Part shown: positions 15,343 through 41,307 of the stretch, piece after piece
Position numbering within the stretch: the first letter of the stretch is position 1
How the letters are laid out: each line of letters begins with the position of its first letter
Assembly (NCBI RefSeq): GCF_024105635.1
Contig: NZ_WYDQ01000001.1
Coordinates: forward strand, 1,922,001 to 1,986,000
Source: Oceanicola sp. 502str15
GTDB lineage: Bacteria; Pseudomonadota; Alphaproteobacteria; Rhodobacterales; Rhodobacteraceae
Length of the DNA: 64,000 nt
Direction of reading: 5' to 3'
The notes under the pieces: model-generated
The model's database searches: none
What the model was told of the DNA's origin: nothing
What the model saw: the letters and a program-made list of their open reading frames with translations, nothing else
Position numbers and translations under genes: made by a program

Positions 15343-16080
15343 ATGAGTGACAAGAAGACAGCGCTCGTCATCAGCGCCCATTCGGCCGATTTCGTCTGGC
15401 GGGCCGGTGGCGCCATCGCCCTGCACCAATCCAAGGGCTACGAGGTGACGGTGGTCTGCCTCAGCTACGGCGAGCGCGGCGAAAGCGCCAAGCTCTGGAA
15501 GCAGGAAGGCATGACGCTGGAGAAGGTGAAAGCCGCCCGGCAGGAAGAGGCAGAGAACGCCGCCGCCGCCCTCGGGATCAACGATATCCGCTTTCTGGAT
15601 CGCGGCGACTACCCGCTGGATCTGGGCCGCGAGACCCTCGACCAGATGGTCGACATCATCCGCGAAGTTCAGCCCAAGTTCATGTTTTCGCACTCGAAAT
15701 GGGACCCCTACAACACCGACCACATGCGCACCACCGACTTTGCGCTGGAGGCCCGGATGGTGGCGCAGGCCTGGGGCCACAACCCCGGCCAGAAGGTGCT
15801 GGGCGCGCCGCAGCTCTACCTCTTCGAGCCGCATCAGACCGAGCAGATGGAATGGCGCCCCAACGTGTTTCTCGACATCACCGAGGTCTGGGACAAGAAA
15901 TGGGCCGCGATCCAGTGCATGCAGGGGCAGGAGCACCTCTGGCACTTCTATGAGAACGTGGCCGAAAACCGCGGCAACCACTTCCGCCGCAACTCTGGCG
16001 GCCAGTCTGGCGGGCGCGATTGCCGCTATGCCGAGGGCTTCCAGTCGATCTTTCCGCGCACCGTGGATGAACTCGAATGA
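15343..16080 (+). CDS. galB: 4-oxalomesaconate hydratase, GalB type (PIG-L/LmbE fold)
   Basis: A 245-residue member of the zinc-dependent PIG-L/LmbE family. The metal motif is a variant: [13 protein letters not shown] replaces the usual [15 protein letters not shown] supplies the later His-containing motif. Pseudomonas GalB, from the same family, hydrates 4-oxalomesaconate to 4-carboxy-4-hydroxy-2-oxoadipate. The next gene, ligK, cleaves that product and overlaps it by ATGA (16077-16080). The ATG at 15343 is preferred because AGGAGG sits nine bases upstream; ATG 15334 would place that site too close. An unrelated deacetylase is possible by family alone, but the neighbours make the hydratase role very likely. 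Confidence 0.85.
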
Positions 16081-16769
16081 CCTACCAGCCGGGAACCACC
16101 GGGCTGGTGGTGCAGAACATCGAGCGGGCTGACCCTCAAGTCATTGACGGGCTTGCAGAATGTGGCGTGGCCACGGTGCATGAGGCGCAGGGGCGCAAGG
16201 GCCTTCTGGCCGCCCACATGCGCCCGATCTACAGCGGCGCGCGGGTGGCCGGCTCTGCCGTGACCATCCTCGCCCCGCCCTGCGACAACTGGATGATCCA
16301 TGTCGCCATCGAGCAGATCCAGCCCGGTGACATCCTCTGCCTCGGCACCATCACCCCCTCCAACGCGGGCTATTTCGGCGACCTTCTGGCCACCTCGGCC
16401 CAGGCGCGGGGCTGCCGGGGGCTGGTGATCGACGCGGGCGTGAGGGACGTTAAAGACCTGACGGAAATGGGTTTTCCGGTCTGGTCCAAGGCGGTCTTCG
16501 CGCAGGGCACCATCAAGGAAACCCTCGGTTCGGTGAACGTGCCGGTGGTCTGCGCCGATGCCATGGTCAACCCCGGCGACGTGCTGGTGGCCGATGATGA
16601 CGGCGTGGTCGTGGTGCGCCGCGAAGAGGCCGCCGAGGTGCTGGAAAAGGCCCGCGCGCGGGAGGCCAACGAGGCCGCCAAGCGGGCGAAGTTCGAGGCC
16701 GGCGAGCTGGGGCTCGACATCTACAAGATGCGCGAACGTCTGGCCGAGGCCGGATTGAAATATGTTTGA
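16077..16769 (+). CDS. ligK: 4-carboxy-4-hydroxy-2-oxoadipate aldolase / oxaloacetate decarboxylase
   Basis: A 230-residue RraA-like class II aldolase (LigK/GalC/ProA family). It splits 4-carboxy-4-hydroxy-2-oxoadipate into pyruvate and oxaloacetate, the last step of the pathway, and family members also decarboxylate oxaloacetate. The signature [27 protein letters not shown] region (about residues 100-126) holds the Arg and Asp of the divalent-metal site. It overlaps galB by four bases. A 150-base gap containing an array of 11-bp repeats separates it from galD. Confidence 0.92.
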
Positions 16770-16809
16770 GCAAATCGCTCTGCGGCGCGGAAAGGTAACA
16801 TGATACCAC

Positions 16810-16853
16810 GGGCACAACCCGTACACATCCCGTACACAACCTGTGCATACCGC
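16810..16853 (+). repeat. Array of four 11-bp direct repeats, consensus GTRCACAWCCC
   Basis: Consecutive units are GGGCACAACCC, GTACACATCCC, GTACACAACCT and GTGCATACCGC (16810, 16821, 16832, 16843). They lie in the ligK-galD gap. A second array with the same period, order and final GTGCATA unit is at 50312-50355. The function is unknown. Confidence 0.8.
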
Positions 16854-16919
16854 AGGTGCAGAAAGTAAAATATTCCATGACCCGGTGCGAGCGTTATGCA
16901 GGCGCAGAAAGGCAAGGCC

Positions 16920-17960
16920 ATGACTGATGGCATCAGATGCATGTGGATGCGGGGCGGCACCTCGAAGGGCGGATATTTTCTGGCCGAGGATCTGCCCGAG
17001 GGTCGCGATGCCTTTCTGCTCCGGGTCATGGGATCGCCCGATCCGCGCCAGATCGACGGGATGGGCGGCACCGATCCGCTGACCTCCAAGGTCGCGGTGG
17101 TGAAGCGCTCGGAGCGCGAGGGGGTCGATGTCGACTATCTCTTCCTCCAGGTCTTCGTCGACCAGCCCATCGTCACCGACGCGCAGAACTGCGGCAACAT
17201 CCTCGCCGGGGTCGGCCCCTTCGCCATCGAGCGCGGGCTGGTCACGGCGCAGGAGGGCGAAACGCCGGTGGCGATCTACATGGAGAACACCGGGCAGGTC
17301 GCCGTGGCGCGGGTCAGCACGCCGGGGGGCGTGGTGAACTACGGGGGCGAGGCCCGGATCGACGGGGTGCCGGGCAGTGCCGCCGCCGTGCCGATCGCCT
17401 TCAAGGATACCGCCGGGTCGAGCTGCGGCGCGCTGCTGCCCACCGGCAATGCGATGGACGTGATCGAGGGTGTCGACTGCACCCTGATCGACAACGGCAT
17501 GCCCTGCGTGGTGATGCGGGCCGCCGACATGGGGATCACCGGCGAGGAGACGCCGGAGGAGCTCGAGGGCAACGAGGGCCTGCGCAAGAAGCTGGAGGCG
17601 ATCCGGCTCAAGGCGGGGCCGCTGATGAACCTTGGCGACGTGGCCGAGAAATCGGTGCCGAAGATGACGATGGTGAGCGCCCCCAAGGCGGGCGCGATCT
17701 CCACCCGCACCTTCATTCCGCACCGCTGCCACAAGACAATCGGCGTGCTGGGCGCGGTCAGCGTGGCCACGGCCTGCCTGACGGAGGGCTCGCCCGCCTA
17801 TGATCTGGCCAACCGCGGCGAAGGCCGCGAGCGGGCGCTTTCGGTCGAGCATCCGACCGGCGAGATGACAGTGGTCGCCACGCTCGAGGGCGGCGACGTA
17901 ACCGAGGCGGCGATCCTTCGGACGGCGCGCAAACTGATGGACGGGGAGGTTTTCGCATGA
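16920..17960 (+). CDS. galD: 4-oxalomesaconate tautomerase (PrpF-like)
   Basis: A 346-residue PrpF-family isomerase (called GalD in Pseudomonas, LigU in Sphingobium) that converts the keto form of oxalomesaconate to the form used by the hydratase. It starts MTDGIRCMWMRGGTSKG, the typical PrpF opening. Two Cys-containing motifs of the fold are visible: SSCGALLPTGN and ATACLTEG. The ATG at 16920 follows AAAGGCAAGG closely; the upstream in-frame ATG at 16896 lacks such support. The stop overlaps the start of ligI (ATGA, 17957-17960). Confidence 0.9.
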   Translation: MTDGIRCMWMRGGTSKGGYFLAEDLPEGRDAFLLRVMGSPDPRQIDGMGGTDPLTSKVAVVKRSEREGVDVDYLFLQVFVDQPIVTDAQNCGNILAGVGPFAIERGLVTAQEGETPVAIYMENTGQVAVARVSTPGGVVNYGGEARIDGVPGSAAAVPIAFKDTAGSSCGALLPTGNAMDVIEGVDCTLIDNGMPCVVMRAADMGITGEETPEELEGNEGLRKKLEAIRLKAGPLMNLGDVAEKSVPKMTMVSAPKAGAISTRTFIPHRCHKTIGVLGAVSVATACLTEGSPAYDLANRGEGRERALSVEHPTGEMTVVATLEGGDVTEAAILRTARKLMDGEVFA

Positions 17961-18847
17961 GCGAGGCACAGGTGATGGACGCGGATTGGCTGGAGTTTCA
18001 CCCCGATCCCAAGACGCCCGATTTCAAGCTGCCCGAGGGGGCGGTGGATGCCCATTGCCACGTGTTCGGCCCCTCCCCCGACTTCCCCTTTGCGCCCGAG
18101 CGCAAGTACACGCCCTGCAACGCGGGCAAGGACAAGCTGTTCGAATTGCGCGACTTTCTCGGCTTCTCGCGCAACGTGATCGTGCAGGCCACCTGCCACG
18201 GCAAGGACAACCGGGCGATGGTGGATGCCTGCCGCGCCGCCGGAGATCTCGCCCGCGGCATCGCCTCTGTCGGCCCCGATGTGAGCGATGAGGAGCTGGC
18301 CGAGATGGACGCGGCAGGCGTGCGCGGCGTGCGGTTCAACTTCGTCAAGCGGCTGGTGGATGCCACGCCCAAGGAGGTCTTCATCGGCATCGCCGAGCGG
18401 ATCAAAGAGCTGGGCTGGCATATCGTCGTCTACTTCGAGGCCGCCGACCTCGAGGAGCTGGTGCCCTTCCTCGAAAGCCTGCCGACCGTGCTGGTGGTCG
18501 ATCACATGGGGCGGCCCGATGTGGCCAAGGGCGTCGATCACCCCGATTTCCAGCGGTTCATCAGCCTGATGGAGCGCAACGAGAACATCTGGAGCAAGGT
18601 CACCTGCCCCGAGCGGCTGAGCCTGCAAGGCCCGCCGTATGACGATGTGGTGCCCTTCTGCCGGGCCATCGTCGAGCGCTTCCCCGACCGCGTGCTCTGG
18701 GGCACCGACTGGCCCCATCCCAACATGAAAACCCACATGCCCGACGACGGGGCACTGGTGGATTACATCCCCCGCATCGCCCCCACCGAAGAGCAGCAGC
18801 GCAAACTCCTCATCGACAACCCGATGCGGCTCTACTGGGCGCGCTGA
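17957..18847 (+). CDS. ligI: 2-pyrone-4,6-dicarboxylate hydrolase
   Basis: A 296-residue amidohydrolase-superfamily lactonase. It opens 2-pyrone-4,6-dicarboxylate, the product of LigC, to 4-oxalomesaconate. The first metal motif VDAHCHVFGP lies near residue 30, and the late catalytic Asp is in WGTDWPHPN near residue 250; VDHMGRPD provides another conserved segment. It is the last gene of the plus-strand arm and overlaps galD by four bases. With LigAB, LigC, GalD, GalB and LigK the full route from protocatechuate to pyruvate and oxaloacetate is present. Confidence 0.93.
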   Translation: MSEAQVMDADWLEFHPDPKTPDFKLPEGAVDAHCHVFGPSPDFPFAPERKYTPCNAGKDKLFELRDFLGFSRNVIVQATCHGKDNRAMVDACRAAGDLARGIASVGPDVSDEELAEMDAAGVRGVRFNFVKRLVDATPKEVFIGIAERIKELGWHIVVYFEAADLEELVPFLESLPTVLVVDHMGRPDVAKGVDHPDFQRFISLMERNENIWSKVTCPERLSLQGPPYDDVVPFCRAIVERFPDRVLWGTDWPHPNMKTHMPDDGALVDYIPRIAPTEEQQRKLLIDNPMRLYWAR

Positions 18848-18870
18848 CCCCTGCCTGCCTGCCACTCCAT

Positions 18871-18895
18871 GAGCATTTTCTTGCTGAAAATACTC
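18871..18895 (-). repeat. Dispersed repeat / imperfect hairpin between convergent genes
   Basis: Read on the minus strand this is GAGTATTTTCAGCAAGAAAA followed by TGCTC. Its ends are self-complementary (GAG-ATTTTC with GAAAAT-CTC), so it may serve as a weak bidirectional terminator between ligI and the aldehyde dehydrogenase gene. Closely similar text recurs at 49268-49295, and a more distant version near 55252-55280. Confidence 0.6.
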
Positions 18896-18940
18896 ACAAA
18901 ATAAAAGACTTGCGCCGCAGGCGCACAATTGAACACGAGT

Positions 18941-20314
18941 TCAATTCAGGAAGTGCCCGAGGATCCGGCGGGTCCACTTGCCATAGGGCGGGCGGATCAG
19001 GTGGGCGCCGTTGGGGCGGCGTTGGGTGAAGACCGATTTGGCGTGGCTCATCGTTCGGAACCCCTCCGGCCCGTGGTAGGCACCGATGCCCGAGGCGCCG
19101 ATGCCGCCGAAGGGCATGTCGTCCACCGCGATGTGCAGCAGCGTATCGTTCACCGTGACCCCGCCCGAGGTGGTGCGGGTGAGCACGGCCTCGCGGGCGG
19201 CATCGTCGGGGCCGAAGTGGTAGAGCGCCAGCGGGCGGGGGCGGGCGTTGATGTGGGCGATGGCCTCTTCGATGCCGTCATAGGGCACCACGGGCAGGAG
19301 CGGGCCGAAGATCTCCTCCTGCATCACCTCCATCTCCTCCGTCACCTCCAGCAGCAGCGCCGGGGCGTTCTCGCCCTCGAAGAGCGGCAGGCGGCGGGCG
19401 CCCTGCCCTTCTGCCTTCTCGGCCAGCGCGGCGAGGCGGTCGGCGTGGCGGCTGTGGATCGGCAGGGTGAAGTTGGGGTCGTTCAGCCCCTCGGGGTAGA
19501 GCGCCTGCGCGGCCGATCTCATGCCCGCGCAGAAAGCTTCGACCTCGCCGCGCGGCACCAGCGCGTAGTCGGGTGCGATGCAGGTCTGCCCGCCGTTGAC
19601 CAGCTTGCCAAAGGCGATGGCGCCGCAGGCCTGGGCCATGTCGGCCCCCGGCGCGATCACCGCCGGGCTCTTGCCGCCCAGTTCCAGCGTCACCGGCGTG
19701 AGATTTGCGCTCGCCGCCTGCATCACCTTGCGGCCCACCTCGGTGCCGCCGGTGAAGAAGAGGTGATCGAAGGGCAGGCCCGAGAAGGCGGCCCCCACCT
19801 CGGGCCCGCCTTCGACCACGGCCACCTGGTCGGGGCGAAACAGGTCTTCGAGCAGGGCGCGCAGGGCGGCATTGCAGGCGGGGGTGAACTCGGAGGGTTT
19901 CAGCATCACCCGGTTGCCGGCGGCGAGGGCCGTGGCGAGCGGGGCGAGGGCCAGCAGGAAGGGGTAGTTCCAGGGCGAGACGATGCCCACCACCCCCTTG
20001 GGCTGGTAGTGGACCCGTGCCTTGCCCGGCCAGAGCGCGGGATGCACCCGCCGCCGCTCGGGCGCCATGAAGCGGCGCAGGTGGCGGTCGAGGTAGGTGA
20101 TGGTGTTGATCGCGGGGACGAGGTCGATCAGCTTGGTCTCGTCGCTTGCGCGGCGGCCGAAATCTTCGTTGGCCGCGGCCGCCAGCGCATCGGCGCGCGC
20201 CGAGACCGCCTTGGCCAGCCGCGACAGGTCTGCCCGGCGCGTGGCCAGTTCGGGCGGGGGCGCGGCGAGGAAGGCGCTGCGCTGGGTGTCGAGGAGCTGG
20301 TGCAGGTCGGTCAT
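18941..20314 (-). CDS. Coniferyl-aldehyde-dehydrogenase-like aldehyde dehydrogenase
   Basis: A 457-residue NAD(P) aldehyde dehydrogenase. Visible motifs are the cofactor segment GIVSPWNYPF, the catalytic Glu in LELGGKSP and the nucleophile Cys in NGGQTCIAPDY. Its length and its C-terminus (RPPYGKWTRRILGHFL) match the CalB-like coniferyl aldehyde dehydrogenase group, which oxidises lignin-derived aldehydes to acids, but relatives with broad substrate range exist. The start ATG 20314 overlaps the photolyase stop (ATGA), making it the third gene of a gloA-photolyase-aldehyde dehydrogenase operon. Its nearness to the protocatechuate genes suggests, but does not prove, a role in lignin monomer use; aldehyde detoxification would fit the glyoxalase neighbour. 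Confidence 0.75.
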   Translation of the reverse strand: MTDLHQLLDTQRSAFLAAPPPELATRRADLSRLAKAVSARADALAAAANEDFGRRASDETKLIDLVPAINTITYLDRHLRRFMAPERRRVHPALWPGKARVHYQPKGVVGIVSPWNYPFLLALAPLATALAAGNRVMLKPSEFTPACNAALRALLEDLFRPDQVAVVEGGPEVGAAFSGLPFDHLFFTGGTEVGRKVMQAASANLTPVTLELGGKSPAVIAPGADMAQACGAIAFGKLVNGGQTCIAPDYALVPRGEVEAFCAGMRSAAQALYPEGLNDPNFTLPIHSRHADRLAALAEKAEGQGARRLPLFEGENAPALLLEVTEEMEVMQEEIFGPLLPVVPYDGIEEAIAHINARPRPLALYHFGPDDAAREAVLTRTTSGGVTVNDTLLHIAVDDMPFGGIGASGIGAYHGPEGFRTMSHAKSVFTQRRPNGAHLIRPPYGKWTRRILGHFLN

Positions 20315-21855
20315 ACGGTTTCGCCTTTGCTCATTTTGTCGAGGAAGGTTTCGGCCTCGCCCAGCACGGTCTCGCGCCGGGCCTCCTCCATCCTGTCCCA
20401 TGTCCTGTACATCTGGGCCGTGCGCGGGTTGCCTTCAAACCGGTCGCGATGTCGCAGCAGGAAATGCCAGTAGAGCAGGTTGAAGGGGCAGGCCCCCTCG
20501 CCGGTTTTCTTTGTCACGGCATAGTCGCAACTGCCGCAGTAGTCGGACATCTTGTTGATGTAGTTGCCTGAAGAGACATAGGGCTTGGAGGCGATCACGC
20601 CACCATCGGCGAACTGGCTCATGCCGAGGGTGTTGGGGGCTTCGACCCATTCGAAGGCGTCGATGTAGACCTCGAGATACCATTCGTGCACCTCCGCCGG
20701 ATTGATCTGGGCGATCAGGGCGAAGTTGCCGGTGATCATCAGCCGCTGGATGTGGTGGGCGTAGGCCTCTTCCTCGGTCTGGCGGACGGCCTGGGCGAGG
20801 CAGTTCATGCGGGTTTTTGCGCCCCAGTAGAGCGGCGGCAGGCTGCGCTGGTGGTTCAGGGCGTTGCGGCGCACATAGTCCGGCCCCTCGTGGAAGTAGA
20901 TGCCGCGGACGTATTCGCGCCAGCCGAGGATCTGGCGGATGAAGCCCTCGGCGGCGTTGATCGGGGCCTTGCCGTCTTTCCACGCGGCCTCGACGCGCTG
21001 GCACACGTCGAGCGGGTCGAGCAGGCCGATGTTGAGGTAGGCGGAGATCAGGGCGTGGTAGAGGAAGCGCTGACCTTGCAGCATGGCGTCCTGATAGGTG
21101 CCGAAGTTCTCCAGCGCGTTTTCGATGAAATGGGTGAGCACCTCTTCGGCCTGCTCGGCGGTGGTGGCAAAGCCGAAGGGACGGAGCTTGCCGAAATTCG
21201 CCCCGAAGCGGTCTTCGACCAGCTTCAGCACCTCCTCTGTTGTCTCGTCGGGCTCGAACCAGAGGGGCTTGGGCAGGAAGAGGTCGTCTTCGGCGGGTTT
21301 GCGGTTGTCGTGGTCGTAATTCCACTTGTCGCCGGCGGGCTTGTCGCCCTCCATCAGCAGGCCGGTCTTGCGGCGCATCTCGCGGTAGAAATACTCCATC
21401 CGCAGCGCCTTGCGGTCCTTGGCCCAGCGCTCGAAGGTGTCGTGGCTGGCGATGAAGCGGGTGTCTTCGAGCAGCTCCACGTCCAGCGGGCAATCTTCCA
21501 GCGCCTCGATCAGGCGCCATTCGCCGGGGCGGGTGGCGAGCACCTCGCCTGCGCCGTGCTCCTCGGCGCGGCGGAGGAGTTCGCCGGGGATGGAGCCGGC
21601 GTTCTCGTCATCATCCAGACGGGTGTAGGCGACCTGCCAGCCATCTTCCGAGAGACGGGCGGCGAACTTGCGCATGGCGGCGAAGATCAGCGCGATCTTC
21701 TTGGGGTGGTGGCGAACATAGTCGGTTTCGGCCGCGACCTCGGCCATGACCACCACGTCCCTGCCCTTCTCCGCCGCCGCGAGGGCGGCGACGGAGGGGG
21801 TCAGCTGGTCTCCCAGAACGAGGACGAGACGCGCGGTGGACTTGGGCGCGCTCAC
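20311..21855 (-). CDS. FeS-type bacterial cryptochrome/(6-4) photolyase
   Basis: A 514-residue member of the FeS-BCP (PhrB/CryB) branch of the photolyase family. The N-terminal alpha/beta antenna domain starts LVLVLGDQLTP, and the FAD-binding helical domain follows. Cys352, Cys440, Cys443 and Cys456 (NCLAQ, CGSC, GACPFN) have exactly the spacing of the four [4Fe-4S] ligands of Agrobacterium PhrB. Related proteins repair (6-4) photoproducts or act as blue-light receptors such as Rhodobacter CryB; sequence alone does not decide. It overlaps gloA upstream and the aldehyde dehydrogenase downstream by four bases each. Confidence 0.9.
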   Translation of the reverse strand: MSAPKSTARLVLVLGDQLTPSVAALAAAEKGRDVVVMAEVAAETDYVRHHPKKIALIFAAMRKFAARLSEDGWQVAYTRLDDDENAGSIPGELLRRAEEHGAGEVLATRPGEWRLIEALEDCPLDVELLEDTRFIASHDTFERWAKDRKALRMEYFYREMRRKTGLLMEGDKPAGDKWNYDHDNRKPAEDDLFLPKPLWFEPDETTEEVLKLVEDRFGANFGKLRPFGFATTAEQAEEVLTHFIENALENFGTYQDAMLQGQRFLYHALISAYLNIGLLDPLDVCQRVEAAWKDGKAPINAAEGFIRQILGWREYVRGIYFHEGPDYVRRNALNHQRSLPPLYWGAKTRMNCLAQAVRQTEEEAYAHHIQRLMITGNFALIAQINPAEVHEWYLEVYIDAFEWVEAPNTLGMSQFADGGVIASKPYVSSGNYINKMSDYCGSCDYAVTKKTGEGACPFNLLYWHFLLRHRDRFEGNPRTAQMYRTWDRMEEARRETVLGEAETFLDKMSKGETV

Positions 21856-22295
21856 CAGTCGCCGGTATTTTCCATCGAGGCCCAGGGCTCCTGGGGGGCG
21901 AGGGCATCGCCCTCCTGGATCAGCTCGATCGAGATGTTGTCGGGCGATTTGACGAAGGCCATGTAGCCATCGCGCGGGGGTCGGTTGATGACCACGCCGG
22001 CGTCCATCAGCTTCTGGCAGGTGGCGTAGATGTCATCGACCCGGTAGGCGAGATGGCCCCAGGCGCGGGCGGTTTCGTACTTTTCGTCGCTGCCCCAGTT
22101 GTAGGTCAACTCAAGCTCGGGCGCGCGCGTTTCCTTGGCGCTGGCGGCATCCTTGGGCGCGGCGAGGAAGATCAGGGTGAACTTGCCCTTCTCGTTGTCG
22201 ATCCGGCGGATCTCTTCGAGACCGAACTTGGTGCACCAGAAATCGAGGCTTTCGTCGATGTCGGTGATGCGGACCATGGTGTGAACGTAGCGCAT
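21852..22295 (-). CDS. gloA: Lactoylglutathione lyase (glyoxalase I)
   Basis: A 147-residue VOC-fold enzyme converting the methylglyoxal-glutathione hemithioacetal to lactoylglutathione. It begins with RYVHTMVRITDIDESLDFW, carrying the first metal His, and continues with ELELTYNWGS and HLAYRVDDI; the last metal ligand is the Glu of SIELIQ. Length is normal. A strong AAAGGAGGGG site precedes the ATG. It is the first gene of the overlapping three-gene operon with the photolyase and the aldehyde dehydrogenase. Confidence 0.93.
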   Translation of the reverse strand: MRYVHTMVRITDIDESLDFWCTKFGLEEIRRIDNEKGKFTLIFLAAPKDAASAKETRAPELELTYNWGSDEKYETARAWGHLAYRVDDIYATCQKLMDAGVVINRPPRDGYMAFVKSPDNISIELIQEGDALAPQEPWASMENTGDW

Positions 22296-22349
22296 TGCTG
22301 CCCCTCCTTTGCTGTTGGGGCTGGATGATAGGGCGCAGGGCGCAAACGG

Positions 22350-22781
22350 CTAGGGGATGAGCACCTGTTTGCGCGGGATGATGGATTCCGACAGGGAGCC
22401 GTCGTCATACATCATGCGGATGGTCACGCTCTCGACCGATTTGGCAGGCGCCTTGACCAGCGGGATCGGGTCCGTGTCGACCATGACGTTGGGGTTGGAA
22501 AACTCGGTGTGGCAGTCGGCCATTTCCAGCTTACGGGTGGGCGGCTCGTCGTTGAAACCGAACTGCACCGCCTGCACGCCGCAACGCCAGGACACGATCG
22601 GGGTGAAGAAGACATAGTCTTCGCTGCCCTCGACGCGGATGGCGATCCACTTGTCCTTGATCGACTCGAGGATCGGGCGCACCTCTTCGGCGGTGGTGAA
22701 GTTTTCGGCCTGAAGGGCAAGCGGGCCTGTGGTCAGAAGGCTGGTGGCTGCGGCGACGGCGGCAATGGAGCGAAAACGCAT
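22350..22781 (-). CDS. Secreted protein of unknown function
   Basis: A 143-residue protein with a clear signal peptide (FRSIAAVAAATSLLTTGPLALQAENF). The mature part of about 118 residues has two Cys residues (WRCGV, ADCHTE), compatible with one periplasmic disulphide, and no membrane segment. A good AAAAGGGAAA ribosome site precedes ATG 22781. It sits 54 bases upstream of gloA in the same direction and is divergent from the glycosyltransferase-like gene. I do not recognise the family. Confidence 0.7.
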   Translation of the reverse strand: MRFRSIAAVAAATSLLTTGPLALQAENFTTAEEVRPILESIKDKWIAIRVEGSEDYVFFTPIVSWRCGVQAVQFGFNDEPPTRKLEMADCHTEFSNPNVMVDTDPIPLVKAPAKSVESVTIRMMYDDGSLSESIIPRKQVLIP

Positions 22782-22867
22782 CGGGGATTTCCCTTTTCGA
22801 CAAATGGACTTTGGCTATAGTGGCCCCCGAAAATGCGGGGCCCGGAAAAATCTTGGTCGGGAGCAGT

Positions 22868-23875
22868 ATGGCCACGAAGCGCAAAAAATCAAAGGCCTTC
22901 AACATCGTCGTCGTCGCCCAGGGTGGGCGGTTGCAGTATGAGGCGGCGCTTTTCGCGGCCTCGCTCCGGCACTTCGATGCAGGTTTCAAGGGGCGGCTCA
23001 TTGTGGCCGAGCCGCAGCCCGGCGCGCGCTGGGGGCAGGACCCGCGCATCACCTCGCCGGCGGTGCGCAAGCTCTTGGAGGAGGAGCTGGGGGCGGAGAT
23101 CGTGCCCTTCGAGAGCCGCCATTTCGGCGAGGCCTACCCCTATGGCAACAAGATCGAGGCGCTGCGCGAATTGCCCGAGGGCGAGCCGTTCGTGTTTTTT
23201 GACAGCGACACGCTGGTGACGGGCGCGCTTTCGGCGCTGAAGATCGATTTCGACCGCCCCGCCGCCTCGATGCGGCGCGAGGGCACGTGGCCGGAGGTGC
23301 CGCTGTATGGCCCCGGCTATGGCGGGATCTGGAAGAGCCTTTACGACAAGTTCGGGCTGGAGTTTGAGAGCACCCTCGATACCAGCCAGCCGGATGAATA
23401 CTGGCGGCGCTATCTCTATTTCAACGCCGGGTGGTTCTTTGGCCCCTGCGGCCCGAGTTTTGGCCGGCGGTTCGAGGAGTATGCGCTGGCGATCCGCGAT
23501 GACGGCCCCGACGAGCTGGCCTGTCAGGAGCTTGATCCCTGGCTCGACCAGGTTGCCCTGCCGCTGGTGATCCATTCCTTCGGCGGCGGACGGCCCGGCC
23601 CCGAGCTGGACGGGCTGGACGGCGATGTGACCTGCCACTGGCGGGTGATGTCGCTGCTCTATGCCCGCGAGGCCGATGCGGTGGTGGAGGCCCTGGGCGC
23701 GGTGACGGCGCCCAACAAGGTGAAGAAGGTTCTGAAGGAGTATGACCCCTTCAAGCGGTTGATTTTTCAGAACAAGGGCGAGAAGGCGCGGGCGCTGTTC
23801 GACCGGGCGCAGATGCCGCGCAAGGAGCAGGCGATCCGCAACCGGCTGAAGCGCGAGAACCTCTGGATGCGGTGA
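22868..23875 (+). CDS. Glycosyltransferase-like protein with a DSD motif
   Basis: A 335-residue cytosolic protein. The N-terminus is very basic (ATKRKKSKAFNIVVVAQ) and leads into a Rossmann-like beta-alpha unit. The segment PFVFFDSDTLVTG looks like the DxD metal/nucleotide-sugar motif of GT-A enzymes such as family 8. YLYFNAGWFFGPCGPSF resembles the acceptor/donor loop seen after DxD in those enzymes. The C-terminal helix is Lys/Arg-rich. The ATG at 22868 is chosen because GGGAGC precedes it; the frame is open from 22811. No polysaccharide genes adjoin it. The GT-A assignment is an inference from motifs. Confidence 0.55.
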   Translation: MATKRKKSKAFNIVVVAQGGRLQYEAALFAASLRHFDAGFKGRLIVAEPQPGARWGQDPRITSPAVRKLLEEELGAEIVPFESRHFGEAYPYGNKIEALRELPEGEPFVFFDSDTLVTGALSALKIDFDRPAASMRREGTWPEVPLYGPGYGGIWKSLYDKFGLEFESTLDTSQPDEYWRRYLYFNAGWFFGPCGPSFGRRFEEYALAIRDDGPDELACQELDPWLDQVALPLVIHSFGGGRPGPELDGLDGDVTCHWRVMSLLYAREADAVVEALGAVTAPNKVKKVLKEYDPFKRLIFQNKGEKARALFDRAQMPRKEQAIRNRLKRENLWMR

Positions 23876-23880
23876 GTTCG

Positions 23881-23904
23881 GAGGGTGGGGTGCACCCACC
23901 CCAT
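23881..23904. terminator. Compact hairpin between convergent genes
   Basis: GGGTGGGGTGCACCCACCCC can fold with GGTGGG/CCCACC pairing between the stop codons of the glycosyltransferase-like gene and the GIY-YIG gene. It lacks a T-run, so termination is inferred from position. Confidence 0.4.
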
Positions 23905-23908
23905 GGGG

Positions 23909-24235
23909 TCAGCGCAGCATCGGGGTGGCGTCGAGGCGGGTGGCCCATGCGGCGCGCCGGGCTTTGACGGCGTCGGCGCGGGCCAGCGGGCCGAGGTCGG
24001 CCGCGAGCGCTTCGAGGGTGTCTACCGTGAGGGTGCCGTCGTGGGCGGCCTGCATCCCTGCCACCGTGCAACTGCCCATGCGAAGCTGGAAGCGCAGGCG
24101 GTTTTCGGCGGCTGGAAGATTGGGCGTGGCGCCGACCCATGTTTTGCCGCCGGTGCGGGCGGCATAGATCACCCATGCATCGGCGGCCTCCTTGGCGGCG
24201 GTGCGGGCGGCGCGTCTGTCGATCCGGTCGGGCAT
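23909..24235 (-). CDS. GIY-YIG nuclease-superfamily protein
   Basis: A 108-residue protein. WVIYAARTGGKTWVGATPNL gives the two short strands of a GIY-YIG fold (VIY and WVG in place of GIY and YIG), followed by a helix rich in Arg (AENRLRFQLRMG) where the catalytic Arg would lie. The C-terminal half is helical. AAGGAG nine bases before ATG 24235 sets the start. It is divergent from the DUF2239 gene across a 61-base region that contains one good promoter and a palindrome. Whether it is an active nuclease cannot be told. Confidence 0.65.
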   Translation of the reverse strand: MPDRIDRRAARTAAKEAADAWVIYAARTGGKTWVGATPNLPAAENRLRFQLRMGSCTVAGMQAAHDGTLTVDTLEALAADLGPLARADAVKARRAAWATRLDATPMLR

Positions 24236-24261
24236 GGCGGGGCTCCTTCTGGCAGCGTGGA

Positions 24262-24289
24262 TTGACATCTTTTTACCCGGGTGTAAATA
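24262..24289 (+). promoter_or_regulatory. Promoter with embedded operator-like palindrome for the DUF2239 gene
   Basis: TTGACA (24262-24267) and TAAATA (24284-24289) are 16 bases apart. Between them lies TTTACCCGGGTGTAAA (24272-24287), whose outer five bases are inverted repeats and whose core ACCCGGGT is a perfect palindrome. The start of transcription would fall at about 24296, next to the ATG at 24297, so the mRNA may be leaderless. The palindrome could also control the divergent GIY-YIG gene. Confidence 0.6.
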
Positions 24290-24296
24290 GGGTGTC

Positions 24297-24824
24297 ATGG
24301 AGATGGAAGAGACATTCACCGCCTTCGAGGGCGCGACGAAGCTGGCCTGCGCCTCCCGCGAGGCGCTCACCGCCGCGCTGGTTGCCATGGGCTACGGCCC
24401 GGGGGCGGCGCTGCTGGTGTTCAGCGACGAGACGGGCCGGGAGACCGACCTTGACCTGTCGGCCGCGCCTCCCGCCCCTGCCCCGCGCAAGAGGGGCCGC
24501 CCCAAGCTGGGGGTGCAGGCGCGCGAGGTGACGCTGCTGCCGCGCCATTGGGACTGGCTTGGCCGCCAGCGCGGCGGATCATCGGCCGTGCTGCGCCGGT
24601 TGGTGGAAGAGGCCATGCGCCGCCCCGACCCGGCAGCGCGGCGCGATGCGACCTATGCCTTTTGCACCGCGATTGCCGGCGACCTGCCGGGCTATGAAGA
24701 GGCGATGCGGGCGCTTTACGCGGGAGAGGGCTTTGCGGGCGCGGTGGCGCATTGGCCAGAGGATATTCGGGCCCACGCGCTGTGGCTTGCCGGTCCGCGC
24801 GACGGCACCGCGCCTCAGCCGTAG
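24297..24824 (+). CDS. DUF2239 family protein with AT-hook-like motif
   Basis: A 175-residue protein of the DUF2239 family, function unknown. The N-terminal ~55 residues begin TFTAFEG. A basic patch RKRGRPKLG at about 62-70 matches an AT-hook core (RGRP), and a helical segment follows (REVTLLPRHWDWLGRQRGG, then AVLRRLVEEAMRRP) that looks suited to nucleic-acid binding. The start at 24297 (or ATG 24303) coincides with the predicted transcription start. The gene ends by overlapping the convergent lipoprotein gene by 10 bases. Confidence 0.75.
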   Translation: MEMEETFTAFEGATKLACASREALTAALVAMGYGPGAALLVFSDETGRETDLDLSAAPPAPAPRKRGRPKLGVQAREVTLLPRHWDWLGRQRGGSSAVLRRLVEEAMRRPDPAARRDATYAFCTAIAGDLPGYEEAMRALYAGEGFAGAVAHWPEDIRAHALWLAGPRDGTAPQP

Positions 24825-25144
24825 CCGCCGCCCTGCCCGCCGCGCAGATAGATGTTGTAGGCCTTCTCGCAGCCCGCCTGCGTGGGGGAGAAACACTTGA
24901 TCCACTGGCCGGTGGCGTTGAGTTCCCAGATCTCCTCGCTCTTGCCGTCAGAATAGATCGCCCGTTCGCGGCGGGTCTTGAAGGTGCGGGCGCCGATCTT
25001 GACCTCGCCGGGGGGCAGCTTCTCAACCTTCACGGGGCGCTCGATGCCGTACTTCGGCGCGATGCCGAGGCCGGTGCCCGTGCCGCAGGCCGCCAGGATG
25101 GAGACCGTTCCGAGCAGGATGGGGAGTTTCATGAGGGTGTTCAT
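24815..25144 (-). CDS. Small lipoprotein of unknown function
   Basis: A 109-residue protein with signal peptide and lipobox (TVSILAACGT), so the lipidated Cys is near residue 20. The mature part has short basic strands (EVKIGARTFKTRRERAIYS, EIWELNATGQWIKCF) and two further Cys residues (KCFS, GCEKAY) that may be bridged. The C-terminal end is Gly-rich. AGGAAAGG precedes ATG 25144. I do not recognise the family. Confidence 0.7.
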   Translation of the reverse strand: MNTLMKLPILLGTVSILAACGTGTGLGIAPKYGIERPVKVEKLPPGEVKIGARTFKTRRERAIYSDGKSEEIWELNATGQWIKCFSPTQAGCEKAYNIYLRGGQGGGYG

Positions 25145-25262
25145 TACATACCTTTCCTGAAATCTCGTGGCCGTGGATGACGGCGCAAAAGCATTGAACA
25201 ATGACCCAAGGTCACCCGGATCGGCGCTTTGTGTCAAATCGCGGGCCCCGTCCCTCCTTGGC

Positions 25263-25277
25263 GCATGAACTTCATGC
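25263..25277. promoter_or_regulatory. Perfect 15-bp palindrome upstream of metY
   Basis: GCATGAACTTCATGC is a perfect 7+1+7 inverted repeat about 85 bases before the metY start. A second small palindrome, TGACCCAAGGTCA, lies at 25202-25214. Both are plausible operators for methionine control; the regulator is not identified. Confidence 0.5.
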
Positions 25278-25362
25278 AGCGATTTCACGCCCGCCCCGAT
25301 TGCCCGATCCGGGGCTCTGGCCTAGGGTCGCGGCGACGAATTTTCCAACGGGAGGACAGACC

Positions 25363-26643
25363 ATGAGCTACGGCTTCGACACGCTGCAAATTCACGCGGG
25401 CGCACGCCCCGATCCGGCGACCGGCGCCCGGCAGACGCCGATCTACCAGAGCACCGCCTATGTGTTCCGCGATGCCGATCACGCTGCCGCGCTCTTCAAC
25501 CTTCAGGAAGTCGGCTACATCTACTCGCGTCTGACCAACCCGACGGTGGCGGTGCTGCAGGAGCGGATCGCCACGCTGGAGGGCGGCGCGGGCGCGGTCT
25601 GCTGCTCTTCGGGCCATGCGGCGCAGATCATGGCGCTGTTTCCGCTGATGGCGCCGGGGCGGAATGTGATCGTGTCGACAAGGCTTTACGGCGGGACCGT
25701 CACGCAAATGTCGCAGACCATCAAGCGCTTTGGCTGGTCGGCCAAGTTCGTGGATTTCGACGATCTGGAGGCGCTGGAAGCGGCGGTGGATGACGACACC
25801 CGCGCGATCTTCTGCGAGAGCGTGGCCAACCCGGGCGGCTACATCACCGACCTGCCGGCCATCGGCAAGCTGGCCAGGAAGGTGGGCCTGCCGCTGATCG
25901 TCGACAACACCTCGGCCACGCCCTACCTCTGCCGCCCGATCGAGCACGGGGCGACGCTGGTGGTGCATTCGACCACCAAGTACCTGACCGGCAACGGCAC
26001 CGTCACCGGCGGCTGCGTGGTGGACTCGGGCACCTTCGACTGGGCGGCTTCGGGCAAGTTTCCGTCGATGTCGGAGCCCGAGCCGGCCTACCACGGGCTG
26101 AAGTTTGCGGAGACCTTCGGGCCGCTGGCCTTCACCTTCCATTCCATTGCCGTGGGGCTGCGGGATCTGGGCATGACGATGAACCCGCAGGGCGCGCATT
26201 ACACGCTGATGGGCATCGAGACCCTGAGCCTGCGGATGGAGCGCCACGTCGCGAACGCGGTGAAGCTGGCCACCTGGCTGGAGACCCACCCCCATGTCGA
26301 GGCCGTGACCTACGCCGGTCTGCCCTCGTCGCCCTATGCCGGGCGGGTCAAGTCGGTGTGCCCCAAGGGCGCGGGCGCGCTGTTCACCATCGCGCTGAAG
26401 GGCGGATACGAGGGCTGCGTGCGGTTCGTGGACAGCCTTGAGCTGTTCAGCCACGTTGCCAACCTTGGCGACACCCGCAGCCTCGTGATCCATTCGGCCT
26501 CCACCACCCACCGCCAGCTCAGCCCCGAGCAGCAGGCGGCGGCGGGGGCGGCGCCCAACGTGGTGCGCCTCTCGGTCGGGCTGGAAGACGCCGAAGATCT
26601 GATTGCCGATCTGGAGCAGGCGCTGGAGAAGGCGCACGGCTGA
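25363..26643 (+). CDS. metY: O-acetylhomoserine aminocarboxypropyltransferase (sulfhydrylase)
   Basis: A 426-residue PLP enzyme of the Cys/Met metabolism family that makes homocysteine (or methionine) from O-acetylhomoserine and sulfide (or methanethiol). The start MSYGFDTLQIHAGARPDPATGARQ is characteristic. The PLP Lys lies in VVHSTTKYLTGNG and the aspartate that pairs with PLP in LPLIVDNTSATPYL; SRLTNPT is also conserved. The length matches MetY rather than the shorter MetB/MetZ group. GGGAGG ahead of ATG 25363 fixes the start. It is monocistronic, with a good terminator downstream. Confidence 0.93.
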   Translation: MSYGFDTLQIHAGARPDPATGARQTPIYQSTAYVFRDADHAAALFNLQEVGYIYSRLTNPTVAVLQERIATLEGGAGAVCCSSGHAAQIMALFPLMAPGRNVIVSTRLYGGTVTQMSQTIKRFGWSAKFVDFDDLEALEAAVDDDTRAIFCESVANPGGYITDLPAIGKLARKVGLPLIVDNTSATPYLCRPIEHGATLVVHSTTKYLTGNGTVTGGCVVDSGTFDWAASGKFPSMSEPEPAYHGLKFAETFGPLAFTFHSIAVGLRDLGMTMNPQGAHYTLMGIETLSLRMERHVANAVKLATWLETHPHVEAVTYAGLPSSPYAGRVKSVCPKGAGALFTIALKGGYEGCVRFVDSLELFSHVANLGDTRSLVIHSASTTHRQLSPEQQAAAGAAPNVVRLSVGLEDAEDLIADLEQALEKAHG

Positions 26644-26706
26644 CGGCGGGTTTCCGCCCGCGGCGGGCTTGCAGTTTCACGACATTGTCAGCCCCGAGAC
26701 CCCAGC

Positions 26707-26736
26707 AATCCGGCCCCTCTGCGGGCCGGATTTTTT
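26707..26736 (+). terminator. Intrinsic terminator after metY
   Basis: AATCCGGCCC (26707-26716) pairs with GGGCCGGATT (26723-26732) over a six-base loop and continues into TTTTTT. Confidence 0.9.
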
Positions 26737-26795
26737 GTTTTGCAACAAGTGGCTTGGGGGCGAGGTGAAGGTGATTGGCCGCAAGATGTGATAAA

Positions 26796-26824
26796 TTGAA
26801 AACCTGACGTTAAGCTTGTATAGA
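26796..26824 (+). promoter_or_regulatory. Promoter of the GspL/GspC-like gene
   Basis: TTGAAA (26796-26801), a 17-base spacer and TATAGA (26819-26824) predict a start near 26831. This rules out the in-frame ATG at 26827 and supports ATG 26884. The leader contains a small GGGCG/CGCCC hairpin at 26841-26857. Confidence 0.65.
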
Positions 26825-26883
26825 CTATGACAGCTACAAGCGGGCGCCCTGACGCCCGCCAGATTTGGCCAGAAAGCTCTTGG

Positions 26884-29800
26884 ATGACCCCTGAATTCGC
26901 GCTTGATCTCAGCCATGATGGCATTTCGCTGCTCCGCCGCGCCGAAGACGGCTGGCGGCAGGTGGGCGCCGTTTCGCTCGATGCCGACAGCCTGGTGGAG
27001 GATCTCGCGGCGCTGCGGGCGCAGGTCGAGGGCGAGGTGGCGGCCAAGCTGGTGATCCCCAACAGCCAGATCCTCTATTCGAGCTGCCCTGCCAGCGGCA
27101 AGGACGAGCTGGCCGACGAGGTTCGGGTGCGGGCGGCACTGGTGGGGGCGACGCCCTACGAGGTGTCGGACCTTGTGTTCGACTGGGAATCCGACGGCGA
27201 GACCTTGCAGATAGCCGTGGTGGCCCGCGAAACCCTTGAAGAGGCCCGCGCCTTTGCCGCCGAGCACGGGTTTGGCCCGGTCGGCTACGTGGCGGTGCCG
27301 CCGCGCGGGGCCTTCCTGCGCGAGCCGTTCTTCGGCCCCGCCGAGCGAGGCCCCGGCGCGGGGCCTGCGATGCTGGCCGAGGCCGAGCCGATCGAGGTGG
27401 TCGGGGCGTGGGAGGCGCAGAAGGTTGCCGAGCCGGAGCCGGAGGTGGAAGCCGCGCCGGTCGAGGTGAGCGTTGCGCTCGAGGCGGCGCTGGACGAGGC
27501 GGATGCCGGTGTGCCGGGTGAGGAAGCTGCCGCGATCGAGGTGGCGGACGAGGCTGATGCGGGGGCGGATTACGCGCCCTTGGTGGCTGCTGAAGAGGGT
27601 GCGGAGGAAGAGGCGGCGGTTGAGGCCGTGGCTCCGGGCGAGGCCGAGGAGGCTGCTGTTGATGCGCCAGTAGAGGCCGCCGAAGAGGGTGTGCCCGATG
27701 TGGCCGCGCCGGACGAGATTGAGGCTGCGGGCGCCGCTGAGGCGACTGTGGATGCCGCTGTAGAGGATGAGGCCGCCGCGCCGGATGCGGAAGAGACCGC
27801 GCCCGAGGTCGTTGCCGCGCGCGAAGCGCCTGAGATCGAGGCGCAGGGTGCGGACCTTGAGGGTCCGGTATCCGGGGCGGCGGTGGCTGCTGCTGATGCG
27901 CCCGTTGAGGAGGACTCCGAAGAGGCCGGGGCTGCTGTGGCCATGCCCGCGTTCAGCTCGATCCGCACGCAGGCCAGCGAGGGGCGTGCCCCCCGCCTTG
28001 GCGCGGCGGTGGACGGGCCGGGCGCAGGGCCGCGGCCGCGGCTGGGTGGAGCGACGCGGGACGATACGCCTGCCTCTCCGCCGGAGAAGACGCCATCGCT
28101 TGGCCGCAGCTCGGGCGAGGCCGCGAAGGGTGCCGCGCCGAAGGAGGCCGCGAAGGCCGAAACTGTAGCGCCCGCGCCGAGTGCCGCCTCGGTGGAGGCC
28201 GCGCCCGATGAGGCGCCCAAGGTTGCCGCCGCGCAGATTGCCCGGGAGGTCGCCGCGAGCACGCCTGCCGCCGACCCCGAACTGGCCCCGCAGGATGCCA
28301 GCCCGCGCAGCAAGGCTGCCTTTGCCGCCTTCCGCAGCAAGGTGGGCGGGCTGCGGCGCACCGAGAAGAGTGCCGATACCCTCACCCCCGAGATCATCGC
28401 CGCCCCCCTGCCCCGCCCGACCCCGGACGACCTGCCCGAGCGCCTTTCGCAGGAGCCGAAGGACGGTGATTTCACCCTGTTCGGCGCGAGGGGCAAGGAA
28501 AAGGCCAAGCCGAGCAAGGGCTTTCCGATCGGGCTGACGGTGGCGCTGCTGCTGTTGCTCGGGGCGGCCGGCCTGTGGTCGAAGATCTTCCTGGCGAGCG
28601 ACCAGAGCACGGCGCAGGACGGCCCGGTTGTGGCCGAGCAGAGCCTTGCCAGCGCGGCACCGCTGCTGGGGGCCGACGGGGCGCTGACCCGCTCGATCAC
28701 CTTCTCCGAAACCGGCACCAGCGGGGCGACCATCGCGCCCGGCGGCGAGGCCGAACTGGCCGAGGCGCTTTCGGCCCCGGCCCAGCCCGACCCCGCCACA
28801 GAGGGTGCGCCGGTTGTGGCGAGCCTTGCCGATGACCCGTTTTCGTCGCTGCCGGAGGAAGAGCCCCGGCTGGCCGAGCCGATGTTCGAGAACCCGCCCC
28901 TGCCCGAGTTCGACGCCGATGCGGACCCGGGCGCGGACGAGCTGGCCGACAGCGAGCCCGAGCCCGAGGCCGCCCCGGGCGAGCCTCTGACCCCCGAGGC
29001 CGCGCAGGCCGCCTATGCCGAGAGCGGCGTTTGGCAGCAGGCCCCCGAGCCGGGCCGGCTTCCGGCGGAGGACAACACCGACGATATCTACATCGCCTCG
29101 ATCGACCCGGAGGTGCAGCCCTATGATGCGGTTGCCCTGCCCCAGGCCCAGACCGGGAGCGGCAGCGATGCGGCCCTGCCCCGTCAGGCCAGCCCGATGC
29201 CGCCCGGTCAGGATGTGGAGTTTGCCGAGGATGGCAGCATCCGTCCGACCGAGGAGGGTGTTGTTACTGCCGATGGGGTGACGCTCTATGCCGGCCGCCC
29301 CCACGTGGTGCCCCGTGTGCGCCCCGGTGGCGCCGCGACGGCAGAGGCCGAGACTGCCGCGGCCGATGTGCCTGCCGCGGAGGACACCGCCGCCGAGGCC
29401 GATGCCCTGCTGGCCGGAAAGAGGCCCAAGGCGCGGCCCGAAGGCATTGTGGAAGAGAACGAGAAGGCCGAGCTTGGCGGGCGGACCCGCGCCGAGCTGG
29501 CCGGGCTGCGGCCCAAGGAGCGCCCGCAGTCGCTGCAGGATGAGGCGGAAGCCAGCCGTCAGGCCGCGATCGAGGAGGCGGTGCGCTCGAGCGAGGCGGA
29601 AAACGCCGAGCTGGCCGAGGATGAAACCCGCGCCGATGCCGAAGCCGAGGCCCGCGCCGAAGCCGAGCTGAAGAGCGCCTCGAAATACGCCGTGGCCTCC
29701 TCGCGCAAGCCCGCCAGCCGGCCGCGGGGCTTTGACGACAAGGTCGCCAGCGCTCGCCGGAAGGCCGAGGAAGAGGCCGAGGCGCAGGCCCGCGCCGCCG

Positions 29801-30165
29801 CGGCCGCCGCCGCCCGCGCCACCTCGCAACCCGAGGCGGAAAGCCGCGAGGAAGAGGTGCAGACCGCCTCTGCCGCCGTGGTGCTGCCGCGCAACCAGAA
29901 GGTTGCGCCCGCCGTGCCCTCGAGCGCCTCGGTGGCCAAGGCGGCCACCAACCGCAACGCGCTGAAGCTGCGCGACATCAACCTGATCGGCGTCTTCGGC
30001 TCGCCCAACCAGCGCCGCGCCCTCGTGCGGCTGCCCTCGGGCCGACTGCTGAAGGTGAAGCCCGGCGACCGGCTCGACGGGGGCAAGGTGGCCGCGATCG
30101 GCCAGAACCAGCTGCGTTACGTCAAGCGGGGCAAGAATATCACCCTCTCGATGCCCAGCGGCTGA
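26884..30165 (+). CDS. Large single-pass protein with GspL-like N-terminus and GspC/PilP-like C-terminus
   Basis: A 1093-residue protein not assigned to a named family. Residues 1-150 ([37 protein letters not shown]) resemble the actin-like cytoplasmic domain of GspL/PilM. Residues 150-545 are a low-complexity Ala/Glu/Pro region. One membrane helix is at about 547-570 ([17 protein letters not shown]). A second disordered Ala/Glu/Pro region follows. The last 69 residues ([58 protein letters not shown]) look like the periplasmic homology region of GspC/PilP. The promoter at 26796 supports this start. It has its own promoter, and kdsA lies 85 bases downstream. No other secretion genes are nearby. 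Both domain calls are motif-level inferences. Confidence 0.55.
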
Positions 30166-30250
30166 CAGGCCCCCTCCCCGGCGGGCCTGTTTGACATCCT
30201 CGCGCGGGCGGTGTTCCTGTGGCGCACATTCTGGCAGCAGGAGACAGGCC

Positions 30251-31069
30251 ATGAAATCGGTGGACCTCGGCGGGTTTTCCATTGGAAACGACAGGCCCTT
30301 TGCCCTGCTGGCCGGACCCTGCCAGCTTGAGAGCCTCGATCACGCGCGGATGCTGGCCGAACGGATCGGCGAGGCGGCCTCTGCGCGGAATATCCCCTTT
30401 GTCTTCAAGGCCAGCTACGACAAGGCCAACCGCACCTCGCTTTCGGGCAAGCGCGGGCTCGGGATCGAGAAGGGGCTGGAGGTGCTGGCGGCGGTGCGCG
30501 AGGAGTTCGGCTGCCCGGTGGTGACGGATGTGCATGACATTGCGCAGGCAGAGCGGGCCGGTGAGGTGGTGGATATCCTGCAGATCCCGGCGTTCCTGTG
30601 CCGCCAGACCGACCTGCTGCTGGCCGCCGGACAGACCGGCCGGGTGATCAACGTGAAGAAGGGCCAGTTTCTGGCGCCCTGGGACATGGGCAACGTGGCC
30701 GAGAAGATCGCGAGCACGGGCAACGAGCGGATCATGCTCTGCGAGCGGGGCACGAGCTTTGGTTACAACGCGCTGGTGAGCGACTTCCGCAGCCTGCCGA
30801 TCATGGCCGAAACCGGCTATCCGGTGGTGTTCGACGCCACCCATTCGGTGCAACAGCCCGGCGGGCTTGGCGGCTCGACGGGCGGCAAGCGGGAATACGT
30901 GCCGGTACTGGCGGCGGCGGCGATGGCGGTGGGCTGTGCGGCGGTCTTCATGGAGGTGCACGAAGACCCCGACAACGCGCCCTCGGACGGGCCGAACATG
31001 CTGCGGCTGGACGATCTGCCGGCAGTGCTCGACCGGCTGGCGGCGCTGGATGCGATCACCAAGGGGTAA
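30251..31069 (+). CDS. kdsA: 3-deoxy-8-phosphooctulonate (KDO-8-P) synthase
   Basis: A 272-residue aldolase joining phosphoenolpyruvate and arabinose-5-phosphate to make KDO-8-phosphate for lipopolysaccharide core. It begins with [16 protein letters not shown], and further hallmarks are [42 protein letters not shown] and [16 protein letters not shown], in the place of the asparagine-containing motif of metal-free enzymes, and the Cys of AGPC suggest the metal-dependent class. ATG 30251 follows AGGAGACAGGCC. A double inverted repeat immediately follows the stop codon. Confidence 0.95.
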
Positions 31070-31123: not shown

Positions 31124-31128
31124 GCTGG

Positions 31129-41304: not shown

Positions 41305-41307
41305 TCG

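Follow-up and report, generated by a model that had tools for sequence, protein, structure and literature searches.

The window, that is, the whole 64,000-nucleotide stretch of Oceanicola sp. 502str15 DNA analysed here, carries two arrays of four consecutive 11-bp units. Array 1 is flanked by RraA-like aldolase and PrpF-family genes, and array 2 by cation-efflux and GNAT genes. The arrays, their flanking motifs and the GC skew around them are as follows.

16001..64000, + strand: stretch in which the array strand has positive GC skew (2-kb bins, 0.007 to 0.231)
16794..16799, + strand: GGTAAC, left flank of array 1, a degenerate form of the (G)TTAACC flank
16810..16851, + strand: array 1, four 11-bp units GGGCACAACCC / GTACACATCCC / GTACACAACCT / GTGCATACC, PWM score 66.7; genome copy at C1:1938832
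50293..50299, + strand: GTTAACC, left flank of array 2, followed by ATGAAAAA
50312..50353, + strand: array 2, four 11-bp units TGTCACACTGC / GTGCACATCCC / GTGCACAGCCC / GTGCATATG, PWM score 56.8; genome copy at C1:1972334
50375..50382, + strand: GGTTAACC, right flank of array 2, in opposite orientation

Two matched four-unit arrays had been reported by an earlier reading of the letters of this DNA (the sequence-only reading), and both proved real at 16810 and 50312. The consensus proposed there, GTRCACAWCCC, is a poor fit to the first unit of array 2; the "TAAC-ATGA" text placed upstream of both arrays belongs to a flank that extends further and is conserved in part, (G)TTAACC...CGAAAA. The array 1 copy lacks a right-hand GTTAAC. 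Single units were not rare by themselves, as the window held 45 matches (≤2 mismatches) compared with a mean of 46 expected. GC skew on the array strand ranged from -0.011 to 0.037 in the window's first 16 kb, was positive after array 1 and was stronger after array 2. Rfam gave 0 matches in the window at the gathering threshold, and the array 2 region had no match among plasmid records. In the relative G015, another unit class occurs at the position of array 2 (L130 versus L066).

Both copies noted earlier belong to a chromosome total of about 55, dispersed over the 4.24-Mb contig C1 (4,239,389 bases). A two-unit pattern (≤2 mismatches) found 121 matches in the genome and 0 in the reversed control, and a pattern of the last two units (≤1 mismatch) found 53 matches, every one on contig C1, with 0 in the control. 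The 55 sites used below are these 53 matches plus two weaker copies (L059 and L079) from the two-unit search. In each own copy the unit, GTRCACANCCY, occurs four times, the last one reading GTRCATACG; two of the copies are degenerate. The aligned element is approximately cGTTAACC-NCGAAAA-[T/G]CACANCC-GTRCACANCC-GTRCACANCC-GTRCATACG-...TTTTTG...-GGTTAAC, of which the right flank comes in a few recurrent versions, the second GGTTAAC often lying about 20-30 bp past the array. The arrays form a discrete set. When a PWM trained on the 53 own arrays was used to scan 464 kb (the first 400-kb stretch and the window), eight arrays scored 39-72; seven of them were in the training set, and the untrained one scored 39. 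The next best scores, at most 11.4, were the same arrays one unit out of register, nothing else exceeded 12, and the best score on reversed sequence was below -12. No decayed copies were detected by the PWM in these 464 kb.

By a simple codon-bias gene caller, none of the 55 arrays lay inside a gene, and two overlapped the next gene's predicted start by less than 10 bp. The flanking gene pairs were convergent in 19 cases, tandem in 31 and divergent in 5. Regulation of the neighbouring genes was not borne out: the 90 scanned proteins among the 110 direct neighbours contained 145 Pfam families, the commonest of which was found in only 4 proteins. Among those scanned, the genes beside the ~55 arrays have no common function. 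The spacing of the arrays was over-regular, with a CV of 0.68 for all 55 sites compared with 0.975 expected by chance (P=0.002), and the CV fell to 0.65 when the two weakest sites were dropped. Mean spacing was 77 kb, and the smallest gap, 14.6 kb, was reached in 0 of 20,000 random placements. Along the chromosome, array orientation flips many times.

At 54 of the 55 own sites, array strand and the sign of the GC skew in the surrounding 7-kb locus agreed. Taken per 3-kb side, the skew sign agreed with the array strand upstream at 53 of 55 and downstream at 53 of 55; the skew therefore retains its sign across the array, and no sign switch occurs at the site. Regression at the array loci gave a coefficient of 0.111 for array orientation (r=0.92) and of 0.015 for replichore arm at the best-fitting origin. 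A KOPS-like replichore guide was rejected on this small arm coefficient and on the many switches of orientation. As a side observation, dnaA (C1:2745015, - strand) lies within a long stretch of negative skew, with no skew switch at the gene.

The shape of the skew was examined in 0.86 Mb of continuous sequence (two 400-kb runs and the window) containing 15 arrays, and the profile was filtered to only those bins beyond the reach of other arrays. Filtered skew lay between -0.01 and 0.015 over the stretch -28 to -8 kb and reached 0.03 at -8 to -4 kb and 0.10 at -4 to 0 kb; downstream it was 0.12-0.13 at 0-8 kb, 0.09-0.11 at 8-24 kb, 0.07-0.09 at 24-36 kb, 0.04-0.05 at 36-44 kb and 0.01-0.02 beyond. 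The average profile is thus a sawtooth, which rises in the final 8 kb upstream of the array and fades one way by about 45 kb downstream. Farther upstream, the filtered bins from -52 to -32 kb (8-10 bins each) stood at 0.04-0.05, though they were near 0 unfiltered, and unfiltered downstream skew levelled at 0.03-0.05 from 36 to 60 kb. At the six arrays of the first stretch, the skew steps ranged from the 72nd to the 99.9th percentile, three of the six reaching only the 72nd-84th; the mean step was 0.122 (P=0.0007 for six arrays, by a resampling that ignores autocorrelation). Not all positive skew domains are headed by a recognised array: those at about 3470-3480 kb and 3585-3605 kb of C1 are not. 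Hidden degenerate arrays behind array-free skew domains were considered and dropped, as a PWM scan of the window and the first 400-kb run found none.

Downstream, the array strand has more G than C and, in places, more T than A. In the first stretch and the window, the skew was seen at 4-fold sites and in intergenic DNA, and it shifted in genes on both strands, indicating that it is not a by-product of gene direction. Four-fold skew on the array strand was 0.22 in co-oriented and 0.45 in opposed genes at 0-8 kb, and 0.02 and 0.21, respectively, at 35-60 kb; in the bins from -60 to -8 kb it was -0.05 to 0.08 in co-oriented and 0.27 to 0.32 in opposed genes. Within 0-35 kb downstream, 97 genes were co-oriented with and 81 opposed to the arrays, which is no clear bias.

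Among the relatives, the generic pattern GTRCAN6GTRCAN6GTRCA occurred in all seven genomes of the genus, with 0 in the controls. In the order, 70 of the 292 genomes sampled had it, spread over 29 of 112 genera, counts that take in single-match genomes and a genome (G044) with 12 control matches; a stricter own-type pattern was found in 42 of 390 genomes of the order. In other families of the class, the generic pattern occurred in 8 of 140 genomes and the dispersed set in none. Units fell into classes: the own genome has GTRCACA, the listed arrays of its congeners are nearly all ATGCACA, G060 and others have GTRCACC, and G047 has GTACAC[A/C]GGC. Among congener arrays fetched, 58 of 60 lay within 200 bp of the place of an own array (36/38 in G015, 18/18 in G019 and 4/4 in G390), and these same-place arrays mostly carry a different unit from the own one. 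Between G015 and G114, with 88-97% identity over 18 loci, the arrays were nearly unchanged. In other genera, the gene or genes next to the array were those next to an own array at 2 of 13 loci (L204 of G060 and L207 of G016); others, such as L206, share the own-array neighbourhood only.

Skew polarity was likewise shared. Array strand agreed with skew sign upstream and downstream, respectively, at 35/38 and 37/38 arrays in G015, 16/18 and 16/18 in G019, and 4/4 and 4/4 in G390, as well as, within 1.45 kb, at 8/8 and 8/8 in G060 and 4/5 and 5/5 in G016, the skew in the last two being weaker (means of ~0.05). A survey of records gave 80 listed loci from at least 120 stretches. Among the matches listed, the 62 arrays from Rhodobacteraceae records showed the polarity at 53/58 upstream and 55/56 downstream, 6 of the 62 coming from a record that may be G015 and so perhaps not being independent; the genera among the matches listed were Vannielia, Oceanicola, Harenicola, Marivivens, Thalassovita, Cognatishimia, Actibacterium and others. 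The polarity was not repeated in the 18 other hits among the matches listed (5/16 and 8/15).

All G019 arrays are of the congener class except L162 (C1:3313300-3320300), which is of the own class and whose counterpart is own L040 (C1:42500-49500). At L162, six adjacent 500-column bins, about 3 kb, were 92-98% identical to the own genome. The 17 other G019 loci had no such run at the array, the longest elsewhere being 1.5 kb (L423, off its array). Judged from this identity pattern, the patch looks like a recent homologous import between congeners that carried the array with it. The arrays are polar sites that stay in place while their recognition code changes, rather than local operators. The sequence-only reading had named random positions, lack of conservation in related strains and varying period as signs against a role, and none of these was seen in the genome and its relatives. 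Its proposal of cooperative protein binding on 11-bp repeats of one helical turn appears sound, as the period is kept in the unit classes seen and positions are conserved between species. A literature search covering open-access journal papers returned no description of such arrays or of a sawtooth skew in Rhodobacteraceae.

We infer that each array starts a one-way DNA process; the sign of the downstream skew is as in a strand that is often left single, or in a leading strand that departs from the array. Our leading guess, held tentatively, is GTA packaging with single-strand import, and unidirectional replication comes close behind. Whatever the process, a dedicated putative protein would bind the four in-phase units head to tail, and the bound array would start a processive one-way DNA reaction. 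The GTRCACA strand would be left exposed or inherited more often, so that it slowly gained G over C. In the GTA reading, packaging would begin near the array and proceed downstream in successive headfuls (~10 x 4.4 kb), and recipients would take up the same strand each time. Array alleles suiting the current machinery would be over-transmitted, which could yield fixed positions together with a changing code. In P22-like headful series, yield fades over about ten headfuls; DNA uptake, too, has a polarity. The direction, the ~45-kb length and the size of the imported 3-kb patch, which one GTA particle could carry, fit GTA headful packaging and single-strand uptake. Furthermore, the weak replichore skew and the lack of clear gene co-orientation favour a long single-stranded intermediate over ordinary forks. 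The own genome has a GTA cluster with terminase, portal, capsid and GTA_TIM genes. As a side observation, two genes just before the GTA terminase genes in this region (L191 2564-3670 and 3667-4182) are one with a PAAR motif and one whose ankyrin-repeat matches are weak and fall below cut-off.

Several results count against the GTA reading. GTA_TIM showed no association with arrays: 37 of 38 array-rich genomes had a hit, and so did 36 of 38 array-free ones; the array-rich G010 lacks it, and G102 and G111 have partial hits only, as do four array-free genomes. Near-array skew in G010, G102 and G111 (0.031, 20 arrays) did not differ from that in three GTA-positive genomes of genus g4 (0.042, 17 arrays; P=0.53). 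The putative TerS, taken by position as the small gene before the large terminase, had no Pfam or PHROG family and no visible DNA-binding domain. The start of the skew up to 8 kb before the array, the levelling of the unfiltered downstream skew, the skew domains without an array and the low percentiles of single arrays were also counted against it. Substitutions since the split of G015 and G114 (18 of 20 loci) gave 4-fold per-base ratios on the array strand of ~1.14 for C>G to G>C and ~1.02 for C>T to G>A, that is, no strong C loss, and all-site ratios were 0.86 and 0.81, in the opposite direction. These ratios do not bear out a present-day bias in the two genomes, and the process may be weak or episodic there. 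Separately, GafA was rejected as the binder, because its N-terminal recognition helix, VHASTILRQIRRFEQRRDDPL, is common to the own genome and G015 while the units differ (29 of 30 proteins were recovered for this comparison, G268 being missing). The GTA cluster was also rejected as an array site, a two-tandem-unit scan of six GTA clusters having given one chance-like hit. According to a 2019 paper, no GTA packaging start sites were known (PMC6854486). A 2024 review describes prominent packaging peaks in D. shibae, for which it judges chromosome architecture or protein occupancy the likelier cause, and reports GTA packaging in R. capsulatus as near even (PMC11841831).

Alternatively, and in our view nearly as likely, an array may be a one-way replication start made of a chain of weak DnaA-like sites, at which an initiator opens the DNA and a fork or displacement synthesis runs tens of kilobases downstream, routinely or as run-off under stress. 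The skew sign would then reflect a leading strand heading away from the array, and the units hold TRCACA or ATGCACA, near the DnaA box, with the 11-bp period corresponding to boxes set 2 bp apart. The DnaA box is TTATNCACA; the GTTAAC flanks resemble CtrA half-sites. Against the box itself the units gave no match, the own genome having GTRCACA and G060 GTRCACC, and the other class, NNATGCACA, agreeing at 7/9. TRCACC of G060 and its relatives breaks the DnaA core. One DnaA_C protein over cut-off was found per genome in the genus, and in its recognition segment, HTTVLYA[I/V]RKI, the own genome has I and six congeners V, one conservative change that coincides with unit class; the segment is otherwise identical despite the different unit. 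DnaA is thus unlikely as the binder. The downstream genes are not clearly co-oriented, no skew sign switch occurs at the array, and the replichore effect of 0.015 at array sites means that ordinary forks leave little skew, all of which weigh against a replication start. Viral contigs bear on it from the other side. Carriage of the arrays by viruses was rejected: the own-type pattern matched 0 viral contigs, and the other unit class occurred in 31, of which 11 were DnaA-box-type clusters by their flanks and the other 20 were unclassified. The 11 IMG/VR contigs, which look closely related, carry TTATGCACA arrays at 11-bp period beside TGTGGATAA, and the cluster is likely a phage replication origin, since seven of nine contigs with two flanks switch skew from negative to positive there. 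The recurrent form of this cluster is TGTGGATAA...TTATGCACAAC/TTATGCACAGC at 11-bp period (L341, L343-L345, L348, L353, L356, L362, L364, L367 and L369). Separately, a small alphaproteobacterial genome (G522, C4:51050-51164 and C28:8-122) contains a long tandem run of GTGCATAACCT, a DnaA-box-like satellite.

Arrays that anchor or load a chromosome-organising protein (for nucleoid occlusion, a domain boundary, or condensin or translocase loading) would account for their restriction to the main contig of the own genome, their over-regular spacing, polarity and conserved positions, with the skew as a side effect; yet we know of no way for such a protein to make composition strand-asymmetric, and we regard this as distinctly unlikely. 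The arrays might instead be rare, Chi-like sites that stop or switch a helicase-nuclease resecting DNA ends, with a polar effect: arrivals from one side would be arrested, leaving only opposite traffic downstream, and a polar barrier to two-way traffic would by reasoning yield a one-sided decay over tens of kilobases with the observed sign. This is improbable, because ~55 sites, 77 kb apart on average, fall far short of Chi densities, the skew is already rising 4-8 kb upstream, and both the even spacing and the unit turnover stay unexplained. Operators of a transcription factor regulon have a precedent in the head-to-tail binding of direct repeats, as in BldC with its 9-bp repeats (PMC5859096), but they are highly improbable here, given neighbours without common function, the rarity of divergent regions (5/55) and a polar skew that a regulon does not explain. 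Least probable of all, and close to negligible, are mobile repeat copies of the REP or MITE type spread by transposition: a multi-copy intergenic element with inverted GTTAAC-like flanks would suit them, but 58 of 60 congener arrays are at the same places and 2 of 13 other-genus loci have the same neighbouring gene or genes, with a different unit; the 464 kb scanned contain no decayed copies, and the spacing is over-regular.

Returning to the one-way start site, we propose, as a generalisation that we put somewhat short of an even chance, that members of the Rhodobacteraceae have tens of fixed polar start sites which mobilise DNA one way, by copying or packaging, for tens of kilobases and dominate the strand asymmetry of the chromosome. 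Sites and putative binder would change code together within a genus, possibly as DNA beside a matching array is over-transmitted, in the manner of a bacterial driven recombination or packaging hotspot. In bacteria, GC skew is usually taken to point to a single origin and a single terminus. Across the chromosome stretches read here, dozens of tiny arrays largely shape it instead, so that calling origins from skew may be misleading in such genomes, and some one-way DNA process seems to have been at work for long enough to leave its mark. Packaging of chromosomal DNA by the Dinoroseobacter shibae GTA is reportedly non-random. Should GTA packaging be the process, the arrays would be start sites of the kind suspected behind that pattern, and GTA-driven recombination would become directly testable; should it be replication, this bacterial chromosome would have numerous additional one-way starts. 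In both cases, that units change at fixed positions inside a single genus is an unusual genome-wide turnover of a DNA-binding code.

Compared with known systems, the arrays resemble headful pac and pseudo-pac sites in being polar sites tied to a one-way processive reaction, with a yield that in P22 fades over about ten headfuls; they differ in that tens of sites lie on a cellular chromosome and the putative GTA TerS has no visible DNA-binding domain. Like KOPS, SRS and other strand-biased guide motifs, their orientation is tied to strand composition, but they follow a local sawtooth that flips many times rather than two replichores, and consist of tens of 44-bp arrays rather than many octamers. 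With Chi sites they share a polar effect that fades with distance, whereas they are too rare and too long, and the upstream shoulder does not fit easily. By analogy with head-to-tail binding of the BldC and ParR type, about one helical turn per unit makes a cooperative filament plausible. The DnaA-box arrays of oriC and of some phages are alike in 11-bp period, head-to-tail polarity, a TRCACA or ATGCACA core close to TNCACA and a G-rich strand downstream; the arrays described here differ in being ~55 dispersed sites with a one-sided decaying skew rather than a two-sided switch, in changing unit class while the DnaA segment changes by at most one I/V, and in having CACC variants. Finally, the run-off origin of the Bartonella GTA, a chromosomal site with flanks that are over-represented in GTA particles (PMC11841831), is a single phage-derived site amplifying its flanks, unlike the ~55 one-way sites of this chromosome.
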